NCBI GenBank assembly: GCA_030265965.1
Contig: JAJDHA010000001.1
Location: 1-64,000 of the forward strand
DNA from: Odoribacter sp. OttesenSCG-928-L07
Lineage (GTDB): Bacteria; Bacteroidota; Bacteroidia; Bacteroidales; BM520
Length of the DNA: 64,000 nt
Direction of reading: 5' to 3'
Notes under the pieces: generated by a model
Seen by the model: the letters and a program-made list of their open reading frames with translations, nothing else
What the model was told of the DNA's origin: nothing
Databases searched by the model: none
Shown: positions 6,462-18,605 of the stretch, piece after piece
How positions within the stretch are numbered: the first letter of the stretch is position 1
How the letters are laid out: every line of letters begins with the position of its first letter
Position numbers and translations under genes: made by a program

Positions 6462-6624
6462 TTAATTTTTAATTGCGTCTACTCTTTTAGGATTTTCGAC
6501 TTACTCCTTAGTTTTAGGATCCTACTTTTATATTAATATGCACAAAACATGAGAACATTACCTTATATTAACTTTTTTTAATGATATTTTCATTTTTAGC
6601 TCAAAATAAAGTCTTGTATTTTAT

Positions 6625-15437: not shown

Positions 15438-16997
15438 ATGCTTAACACATTATCAAATATATTAACAAAACTGTTATCGGTAATTATCTTGATTATGTTA
15501 AGCGTTTTTTGTAATGCTCAATCCGAAGTCGAAAAAAAGTCAACCGACGATGAAAAAAAACCAACATTAATACAACTAATTCAGGCTGACGTTGCAAATA
15601 ATCATCGTTCTACAAATAATCAAATTTTAATAGGCAACGTTATCTTTAAACATGACGAAGCCTTCCTTTATTGCGATAGCGCATATTTGAATAAGAGTCG
15701 CAACGATTTAGAAGCTTTTGGTAAAGTACATGTTATTGAAAGTGACACAATCAATTTGTACGGAAAACATTTGATTTACAACGGTAATACAAAACTTGCA
15801 GAAATTAGTCGTGAGGTTTTATTGACAGATCCAACTACTAATCTTCGCACCGAAATTTTATTTTACGACAGAGCAAAACAAGTTGCGTATTATAATACCG
15901 GAGCAACAATTATTAATAGTGATAAAACTTTGGTAAGCAAACGAGGTATTTATAATTTAGATAATAAAGATTTCGATTTTTTTATTGATGTGGTAATAAC
16001 AGACCCTGAATATGTTTTAGAGGCAGATACGGTTTTTTATAATAGTAATACTGAAATTGCAAGAACAATTAGCAAAACAATTATTCACAATGGCGAAAAT
16101 ACAATATATTGTGAAAAGGGAATTTATGATTCTAAAGTTAAAAAATCATTTTTAAAAACAAATGTTGAAATACACTATAATGAATATATAGTTTTTTGTG
16201 ATAGCGCTTATTATAATGAATCAATAGAATATGCAGAGGCTTATAAAGATGTAATTACAATCGATACCGCAAATAATGTCAAATCTTGGTCGGAATATCT
16301 CGAATACAACAAAATAGGAGAATACGCATTTATTTCTGAGGATGCAGTAGCAAGAGCAGTAAACGAAGGCGATACTATTTTCCTTTTTGCAGACACTTTG
16401 TTCGCAAAATTTAATAATGAAACTGAAACTATTGATAAAGCATTCGCATATAATAATACAAAAATATTTAGTAATGATTATCAGTCTGCATGCGATTCGT
16501 TAGTGTATTATCATTCAGATTCAATCGCTGTGTTATATAATAGTCCTGCTTTGTGGTCGGGAAATAATCAAATTACCGGTGATTCAATTACATTCATAGT
16601 TAAAAATGAAACTCTTGAAAAAATTACTGCAACACCAAACGGATTTATTATTTCAGAAGATAGTCTCGGCGCATATAATCAAATTAAAGGCAAACTTATT
16701 GACTTATTTTTTGAAAACAATAAACTCGACAATGTTTTTGTTAATGGCAATTCTGAGATTTTATATTTTCTTAGAGAAGATGATGGGACAATGATTGGTC
16801 CTTATTATATCATTTCATCCGATTCAAGAATTTTCTTTAATGAAAATGAAATTTCGAAATTAATTAACCTTAGTAATCCTAAATCAGAACTTACACCTGA
16901 AGAAAAATCAGTAAAAGAAAAAGAAATTTTAACAGGATTCAAAAATAAATTTGATGAAATACCTGAAAAACCTACAAATAATAAGTTTTTTCGGTAA
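15438..16997 (+). CDS. OstA-like protein (LPS-transport LptA/LptD-type beta-jelly-roll)
   Basis: 519 residues. N-terminal hydrophobic signal region (LLSVIILIMLSVFCNAQ), then many short repeats of the OstA fold: GNVIFKHDEAFLYCDSAYLNKSRNDLEAFGKVHV, KRGIYNLDNKDFDFFIDVVITDPEYVLEADTVFYN, and further VYCDSAYYN-type strands. The OstA/LptA fold binds the acyl chains of lipopolysaccharide in the periplasm. The Bacteroidota OstA-like proteins are distinct from canonical LptA and LptD, and their place in LPS export is inferred. It ends at 16997 with no strong terminator. Confidence 0.85.
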   Translation: MLNTLSNILTKLLSVIILIMLSVFCNAQSEVEKKSTDDEKKPTLIQLIQADVANNHRSTNNQILIGNVIFKHDEAFLYCDSAYLNKSRNDLEAFGKVHVIESDTINLYGKHLIYNGNTKLAEISREVLLTDPTTNLRTEILFYDRAKQVAYYNTGATIINSDKTLVSKRGIYNLDNKDFDFFIDVVITDPEYVLEADTVFYNSNTEIARTISKTIIHNGENTIYCEKGIYDSKVKKSFLKTNVEIHYNEYIVFCDSAYYNESIEYAEAYKDVITIDTANNVKSWSEYLEYNKIGEYAFISEDAVARAVNEGDTIFLFADTLFAKFNNETETIDKAFAYNNTKIFSNDYQSACDSLVYYHSDSIAVLYNSPALWSGNNQITGDSITFIVKNETLEKITATPNGFIISEDSLGAYNQIKGKLIDLFFENNKLDNVFVNGNSEILYFLREDDGTMIGPYYIISSDSRIFFNENEISKLINLSNPKSELTPEEKSVKEKEILTGFKNKFDEIPEKPTNNKFFR

Positions 16998-17113
16998 TAT
17001 TAATGAATCTTAATTTTCTTTGCTTGTTTTTTCAAAAAACAAACCAATCAAACCATTGTTAATCAAGATTGTAAAATTTGTTAACATTTATTAACATTTT
17101 TTATTGAAAAAAC

Positions 17114-17145
17114 TTGTCACAAAATCAAATTTATTTATACCTTTG
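17114..17145 (+). promoter_or_regulatory. Strong consensus promoter for a candidate small RNA
   Basis: TTG (17114-17116), 21 bases, TACCTTTG (17138-17145). It is one of the best matches to the Bacteroidota consensus in the window. No convincing ORF follows before the terminator at 17262-17295. Confidence 0.6.
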
Positions 17146-17151
17146 TCAAGT

Positions 17152-17293
17152 TCTTTTTTTTGTATTTACAATGTGGTTGGTCGTCAGTTCGTCCCTTCCT
17201 TTTAGTTCCTAAAATAATGTGTGTATATATTTACCCCCCCTTTAGAAACGACCAACCCATTAAAGGTAGAAGCGATTGCTTCTACCTTTTTTT
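17152..17293 (+). ncRNA. Candidate structured small RNA upstream of pgi
   Basis: About 140 bases between a consensus promoter and an intrinsic terminator, without a credible ORF. The 5' arm GGTTGGTCGT (17175-17184) is a perfect complement of ACGACCAACC (17248-17257), closing a 63-base interior. Within this, TTTTAG-TTC-CTAAAA forms a 6-bp hairpin, and a run of seven C lies in TTACCCCCCCTTTAG. A small stem closing a large loop plus terminator is a layout shared with several structured RNAs including 6S-like RNAs, but it is shorter than 6S RNA and I do not recognise the family. It could alternatively be an attenuator for pgi. Confidence 0.5.
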
Positions 17294-17295
17294 TT
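17262..17295 (+). terminator. Intrinsic terminator of the candidate small RNA
   Basis: AAAGGTAGAAGC, loop GATT, GCTTCTACCTTT, continuing into an unbroken T-run to 17295. It is the cleanest Rho-independent terminator in the window. The -33 element of the pgi promoter lies within it. Confidence 0.85.
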
Positions 17296-17304
17296 GTATA
17301 TTTG
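17276..17304 (+). promoter_or_regulatory. pgi promoter overlapping the terminator
   Basis: TTG (17276-17278), 18 bases, TATATTTG (17297-17304). With the pgi ATG at 17316 the leader would be only about 5 bases. Confidence 0.5.
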
Positions 17305-17315
17305 CCAAAAAAATT

Positions 17316-18605
17316 ATGAAAGCAATAAGTGTAAACAACAAGTTCTCAGAACAATTTATTCCAATCGAATTAAACAATATCATAATTAATGAATTAATTT
17401 CCGCCTATAATACATTAATTGATAAAACGGGCAAAGGGAAGGAATTTACCGGTTGGATTGACACGCCAAAATCTATTCTTGATTCATCTTTATTATATGA
17501 AGTAAATGAACACATCGGAAGTTTAAAAAACAAAATTGATTCTGTTGTAGTTATCGGGATTGGCGGTTCTTATCTTGGAGCAAAAGCAATTATTGATGCA
17601 TTAAATTATCAACATATTTCAAATGGAATAAAAATTCATTATGCCGGCAATGATCTTAACGGAATCAACCTGAGCAATTTACTCAACAACTTGGAACGTG
17701 AAGATTATGCTGTGGTAGTAATTTCAAAATCAGGGACTACAATAGAACCTGCAATAGCTTTCAGAATAATTAAGGAACATATTGAAAAGAAATACGGCAC
17801 TTCTGAAGCCGCAAATAGAATTATTGCAATTACAGACAAAGAAAAAGGTAAATTGCGCGAAACTGCTAATCAAAATAATTACAAAACATTCGTTATTCCT
17901 GATGATGTCGGCGGAAGATTTTCTGTGTTGACTCCCGTAGGATTGGTGCCGCTTGCTTTTGCCGGAATAGATATTAACGAACTTGTTAGAGGAGCCAATG
18001 ATATGGCAGAAATATGTACAAAGGAAAATGATATATCAAAAAACCCTGCTTTACAATATGCAATGACAAGATATAGCTTGCACGCATTAGGATTTGATGT
18101 TGAGATTCTTGTAAATTACCTCAACCAGCTTAACTCACTCTGTGAATGGTGGAAACAACTTTTTGGTGAAAGTGAAGGAAAAGATGGAAAAGGTTTATTT
18201 CCGGCAAGCACTTCATTTACAACAGATTTACATTCATTAGGACAATTTATCCAAGATGGCTCAAAAATACTCTTTGAAACAATTCTACATATAGAAAATA
18301 TTGACAAAGATGTCATAATTCCAAAAATTGAAAATGATTTCGACGGATTAAATTATCTTGCAGGAAAAAGTTTGCATCAAATAAATAAAATCGCTGAGGA
18401 AGCAACAACCCAAGCTCATGTTGACGGCGGTGTGCCAAACATTACCATTAATATTCCACAATTAAATGAGTATTATCTCGGACAATTAATATATATGTTC
18501 GAATTTGCTTGCGGCATTGGCGGTTATATGCTTGATGTAAATCCTTTCGACCAACCCGGAGTTGAAGCGTATAAAAAGAATATGTTTAAACTACTGCAAT
18601 ATTAA
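17316..18605 (+). CDS. pgi: Glucose-6-phosphate isomerase
   Basis: 429 residues from the ATG at 17316 ([10 protein letters not shown]). The frame is open from 17160 but that part encodes the candidate RNA and terminator, so it is rejected. Visible PGI features: [16 protein letters not shown] near residue 75, [10 protein letters not shown] (sugar-phosphate site), the signature [23 protein letters not shown], and the late QPGVEAYK with the active-site lysine region. The roughly 430-residue length matches the short bacterial PGI class. It interconverts glucose-6-P and fructose-6-P. Its last 20 bases overlap convergently with leuS. Confidence 0.96.

Follow-up and report, generated by a model that had tools for sequence, protein, structure and literature searches.

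Upstream of pgi in an uncultivated Bacteroidales bacterium lie a promoter, a structured segment and a terminator, and this arrangement raises two questions: does the segment encode a small RNA in its own right or serve as a leader of pgi, and what would control its expression? The locus is in a window of 64,000 nucleotides (the whole stretch of DNA that was analysed) from a 74%-complete genome, G000. A structured stand-alone small RNA had been predicted here, and covariation, the same placement in two other species and a -7 box of pgi's own beyond the terminator all bear this out. Judged from its sequence, the segment is a genuine stand-alone small RNA gene, new and ordinary in kind (Table 1). 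In this lineage it is most probably the small RNA that RprXY, a stress-sensing two-component system, controls: promoter and place would have been kept, with rprXY elsewhere and the body of the RNA diverged or replaced.

Anatomy of the small RNA gene

The TTG and -7 elements of the small RNA promoter are separated by 21 nt and agree with the Bacteroides promoter consensus TTTG/TAnnTTTG, the grammar of sigma-ABfr [PMC7366714], as had been proposed. The TAnnTTTG box is also present in two related genomes, G001 and G004. At the other end of the gene, the clean terminator of the original prediction is the single terminator-like site in 800 bases, where 0.3 would be expected. The predicted RNA folds at -37.4 kcal/mol (z = -6.95), with 0 of 200 shuffles equally good; the wider stretch 17114-17304 has z = -4.65.

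The closing stem was described at first as 10 bp long. Its core pairs GGTTGGTCGT (17175-17184) with ACGACCAACC (17248-17257), AATG/CATT extends the pairing, and the whole holds out a loop of about 60 nt. The C7 run is at 17234-17240. The inner hairpin (UUUUAG-UUC-CUAAAA) did not hold up, since a pair is lost in G004 by a change on one side, with no compensatory change. There is no convincing ORF inside the small RNA stretch, also as predicted. A short ORF in the loop, MCVYIYP, cannot be claimed as a coding signal because its conserved codons are nucleotide-identical in three species and its ends differ. We also note a partial direct repeat within 17149-17237: the leader has AGUUC...GUAUUUAC, the loop AGUUCC...GUAUAUAUUUAC. 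The two copies are unpaired and conserved, and they possibly offer one partner two contacts.

Table 1. Features of the small RNA locus and its neighbours in G000
Feature	Positions	Strand	Basis and remarks
OstA_2 / LptA-like LPS export protein gene	15438..16997	+	PF13100, E 2e-50
Tandem 10-bp TTAAC repeats	17081..17102	+	Two clear copies, TTAACATTTA TTAACATTTT; pattern search; register shared with rprX loci
-33 element of small RNA promoter, TTG	17114..17116	+	Sequence and published consensus
-7 element of small RNA promoter, TACCTTTG	17138..17145	+	TAccTTTG, type TAnnTTTG; sequence
Small RNA gene (predicted ends)	17150..17294	+	~145 nt; +1 about 17150-17152; fold, homologues in G001/G004, covariation
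U-rich leader, AGUUCUUUUUUUUGUAUUUACAA	17149..17171	+	21/22 columns identical in three species
Closing stem, 5' arm	17170..17184	+	Pairs with 17248-17261
Closing stem, 3' arm	17248..17261	+	Covariation
Loop core, CGUCCCUUCCUUUUAGUUCCUAAAAUAAUGUGUGUAUAUAUUUACCCC	17190..17237	+	48 nt, almost invariant
Intrinsic terminator	17262..17295	+	12-bp stem (17262-17289), GATT loop, U tract
Probable pgi promoter	17276..17304	+	TTG 17276-17278, 18 nt, TATATTTG at 17297-17304
pgi, glucose-6-phosphate isomerase	17316..18605	+	NF010697, 578 bits (above cut-off); PF00342

Homologues and covariation

BLAST against 40 relatives gave two homologues, one in G001 and one in G004. Both species belong to this genus, and in both the RNA lies between pgi and, on its upstream side, the OstA/LptA-like gene. 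The G001 homologue is 92% identical across its full length. The G004 homologue is 87% identical across the first 88 bases, and the remainder was aligned by R1, a model of the window RNA. R1 finds the window RNA in 3 of 393 Bacteroidales genomes; weak matches in G348 and G129 (a coding gene and an unrelated terminator near a tRNA) are spurious. In GTDB 220 the sole exact match to the loop core is the G004 record, a Bacteroidales MAG ('Bacteroidales bacterium isolate STF1_214'), so that search gave no extra homologues for covariation. As to whether the RNA always precedes pgi, it does so in 3 of the 5 species of the genus examined, and thus not always. In the other two, G002 and G003 (L040, L041), the RNA is missing and pgi is immediately preceded by an unrelated gene.

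The original prediction did not recognize the family, and neither the RNA nor its homologous loci reach the gathering threshold of any family in Rfam 15. Relaxed thresholds give chance-level matches, mostly on the terminator hairpin. Elsewhere in the window, an Rfam DUF805b RNA (RF02914) scores above its gathering score at 6476-6509 on the minus strand.

Both stems covary among the three species. The alignment was guided by the structure of two of the sequences and leans towards it; in it, 14 of 26 pairs are altered on both sides and 96% of cells are paired. None of 500 shuffles scored as high, and pairing falls to 23-50% once the partner is displaced by 1-3 columns. When G004 was folded independently, the same two helices formed. 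The closing stem has five pairs altered on both sides and one G-C to G-U change, and the terminator stem has 9 of 12 pairs altered on both sides with every cell paired. Three sequences are few, so the weight rests on the number of compensated pairs. The plus strand is supported by the closing-stem pair that is G-U on that strand, and likewise by the promoter and the U tract.

The unpaired regions behave differently from the stems. Invariant columns make up 21 of 22 in the leader and 50 of 60 in the loop (longest run 34 nt), versus 13 of 28 and 6 of 24 in the stems; the neighbouring Pgi proteins are 54-74% identical. Rebuilt stems around a nearly invariant leader and loop are the signature of a scaffold stem and a working loop, and the loop core is likely the functional part of the RNA.

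Relationship of the small RNA to pgi

In three species, a structured RNA that reads in the direction of pgi ends in a terminator about 20 nt upstream of the pgi start codon. Such an RNA could be a cis-acting pgi leader, that is, a riboswitch or attenuator governing read-through of the terminator. We consider this very unlikely. In G000 and G001 the terminator is immediately followed by a separate TAnnTTTG box, G004 has a near-match (TATACTTTTG), and similar boxes are found in three genomes of a sister genus (G005-G007). Most of the terminator stem has been rebuilt around an unchanged loop, there is no conserved alternative pairing between loop and terminator, and an antiterminator formed by these two parts therefore cannot be conserved. 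No Rfam riboswitch matches the RNA, which agrees with its not being a known riboswitch of pgi. Finally, the counterpart RNA at rprX loci (see below) has no pgi in 8 of 22 stretches read, some of them at contig ends.

The -33 element of pgi had been placed in the terminator stem. It does lie within the hairpin, and it spans mostly the loop, with the first base of the 3' arm as its one stem position. This overlap of terminator and pgi promoter is kept in G000, G001 and G004, with 17-18 nt between the TTG and the -7 box. Because the -33 element sits within the hairpin, strong transcription of the small RNA may damp pgi locally, as a secondary effect. The same conserved geometry could be taken to mean that the locus is chiefly a local device, in which transcription occludes the pgi promoter and the RNA product is unimportant. 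Such a device would not preserve a 48-nt loop core and a leader while the stems turn over, and we regard it as very improbable.

The long closing stem and large internal loop also recall 6S RNA, and RF00013 detects no 6S RNA in G000 or G001. It is nevertheless scarcely credible that the window RNA is a 6S RNA particular to this lineage or some other RNA that binds RNA polymerase: the window RNA lacks the long terminal stem of 6S RNA and does not match RF00013, a weak 6S match is found in G002 between zapA and rny, and G004 has both a similar sequence at that place and the window-type RNA. The 6S-like RNAs between zapA and rny are at L037:1501-1669, L131 (about 1800-1990) and L132 (G002, G004); in G000 the zapA-rny gap is only about 100 bases and holds no 6S-like RNA.

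A small RNA linked to rprX in other Bacteroidales

Tandem TTAAC repeats precede the small RNA promoter; the original prediction had missed these repeats, which tie the gene to RprXY. The first TTAAC precedes the -7 box by 57 nt in G000 and by 58 nt in G001. The pattern TTAACN5TTAACN(41-44)TANNTTTG has a single match in the whole of G000 and a single one in the whole of G001, each at this RNA gene, and its reversed control has 0 matches in eight genomes. When the upstream region was shuffled, the repeat with a box at 57 nt arose in 0 of 20000 trials. Regulators of the OmpR/PhoB type bind tandem direct repeats, and the TTAAC repeats are a probable binding site for an RprY-type response regulator.

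Genomes of the sister genus (G005-G007) also have a small RNA gene that ends in a terminator ahead of pgi, and its sequence is quite different from that of the window RNA. Upstream of it lies a divergent sensor kinase gene, and loci so arranged are present in other Bacteroidales families too. Common to these loci are four 10-bp repeats, each starting with TTAAC. When 119 genomes were searched for this four-fold repeat, 35 had matches; most of the loci read had a divergent RprX-like kinase motif, and many had a downstream small noncoding gene with a terminator and a -7 box 57 nt from the first repeat. At some rprX loci (L094, L114), an ORF begins shortly after the -7 box, and what the TTAAC promoter drives there seems to be a protein gene instead of a small RNA.

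To avoid circularity, a sequence model of this second RNA (R2) was built from the transcribed part only, without the promoter, and was searched in 393 genomes. It found 14 loci outside the model set at E<1e-4, 12 of which have the repeats at 57-58 nt together with a divergent RprX-like kinase. Among the R2 loci with repeats (10 from the model and 12 new), the kinase is present in 22 of 22 and pgi is downstream in 14 of 22 within the stretch read. Thus the R2 RNA travels with rprX and only often with pgi. The RNA has the motifs UUUAUGUU..ACAUUGUGC..UUUUGGUUUUUGGUU and a terminator, occurs in about 22 Bacteroidales genomes (L133-L156, e.g., L137, L141, L143, L145) and is absent from Rfam. This locus of TTAAC promoter and small RNA, tied to RprXY across Bacteroidales, appears to have gone undescribed.

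Is the window RNA the RprXY-linked RNA of its lineage?

The window RNA has the TTAAC repeats 57-58 nt before TAnnTTTG that characterize R2 loci (its G004 homologue does not). On the basis of this shared promoter layout and the shared place, we take it to be most probably its lineage's RprXY-controlled small RNA. The R2 motifs were not found in the window RNA, and R2 does not match it, so by sequence it falls outside the R2 family and is instead a positional counterpart. A weak R2 match elsewhere in the window (6684, 11.9 bits) is away from the RNA. Beside the window repeats there is no divergent rprX and the OstA/LptA-like gene stands there instead. In this genus rprXY is located elsewhere, next to a peptidyl-prolyl isomerase-like gene in G001 and G003; a search of G000, which is 74% complete, did not turn up rprX. 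The response regulator beside the G001 kinase has RprY as its best NCBIfam match (1.8e-96), yet scores under the curated cut-off (322 of 370 bits).

RprXY was reportedly first cloned in 1993, from B. fragilis, and to our knowledge its regulon and signal in Bacteroidales are poorly known. RprY is an OmpR-family regulator that has been studied in B. fragilis and Porphyromonas gingivalis. Our literature search found no link between RprY and a small RNA, and no published RprY site for comparison with the TTAAC repeats.

At the window and G001 loci just two of the four repeats can be made out clearly, and none is visible at the G004 locus, so control by RprY may not span the whole genus. The repeats might instead be bound by another regulator, or be a constitutive upstream element, with the RNA being a small RNA of unknown kind. 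The lack of repeats in G004 and the location of rprXY elsewhere in this genus speak for such an explanation. We consider it unlikely, given that a divergent RprX-like kinase accompanies every R2 locus with repeats, in an autoregulation-like arrangement with a fixed register to the -7 box, and that the repeats are of the kind suited to OmpR/PhoB-type regulators. It could further be that Bacteroidales have an undescribed small RNA locus under two-component control and that the genus of the window kept its promoter and place and swapped in an unrelated structured RNA, making the RNA arm of RprXY exchangeable in evolution; we entertain this idea with slightly more doubt than belief.

A model for the small RNA

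We favor, with a fair amount of confidence, a model in which the gene encodes a stand-alone, probably trans-acting small RNA that is controlled by RprY, has a clamp stem presenting its leader and loop, and is the positional counterpart of the rprX-linked RNA. An OmpR-family response regulator, most likely RprY, would bind the TTAAC repeats and set transcription. RNA polymerase would then, from the sigma-ABfr promoter, make an RNA of about 145 nt predicted to end at the intrinsic terminator. The closing stem would act as a clamp, free to vary in sequence, that presents the U-rich 5' leader and the nearly fixed loop of about 60 nt. These two parts are the likely contact surfaces, either for mRNA pairing (through the C-rich CCCUUCC and ACCCC) or for an RNA-binding protein, and through them the RNA would act in trans. 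A target search in three genomes with the seed complement AAGGAAGGGACG (of CGUCCCUUCCUU), allowing one mismatch, gave no excess over the reversed control. The window RNA would thereby fill the place that, in other Bacteroidales, is taken by the small RNA between a divergent rprX and, often, pgi.

Several known small RNAs share some of these properties. For example, envelope or osmotic two-component systems determine the expression of MicF, OmrA/OmrB and CpxQ in enterobacteria, as we propose for the window RNA. However, these RNAs belong to another phylum, depend on another sigma factor and have no sequence in common with the window RNA. The R2 RNA has the same promoter architecture and register, a terminator and, in many genomes, the position before pgi. 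The window RNA differs from it in having no significant sequence similarity, a long closing stem, a different conserved loop and no adjoining rprX. MasB (BTnc201, RF04177) and GibS of Bacteroides thetaiotaomicron are likewise intergenic, of a similar size class and from Bacteroidales, but the sequence of MasB, which is activated by Cur [PMC10994844], differs from that of the window RNA, which has no Rfam match. Lastly, SnoA of B. thetaiotaomicron is encoded at a locus that likewise overlaps a neighbour's promoter. It runs antisense to the hcp promoter and works together with HcpR [PMC13370916], whereas the window RNA is co-directional with pgi. Bacteroides has no obvious Hfq [PMC7366714].

If the small RNA is the most constant neighbour and target of RprXY, it would provide a direct readout of the system and a post-transcriptional arm comparable to what OmpR and CpxR have in enterobacteria. 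With its fixed register, the promoter offers a testable RprY site, and the locus can easily be sought in genetically tractable species.
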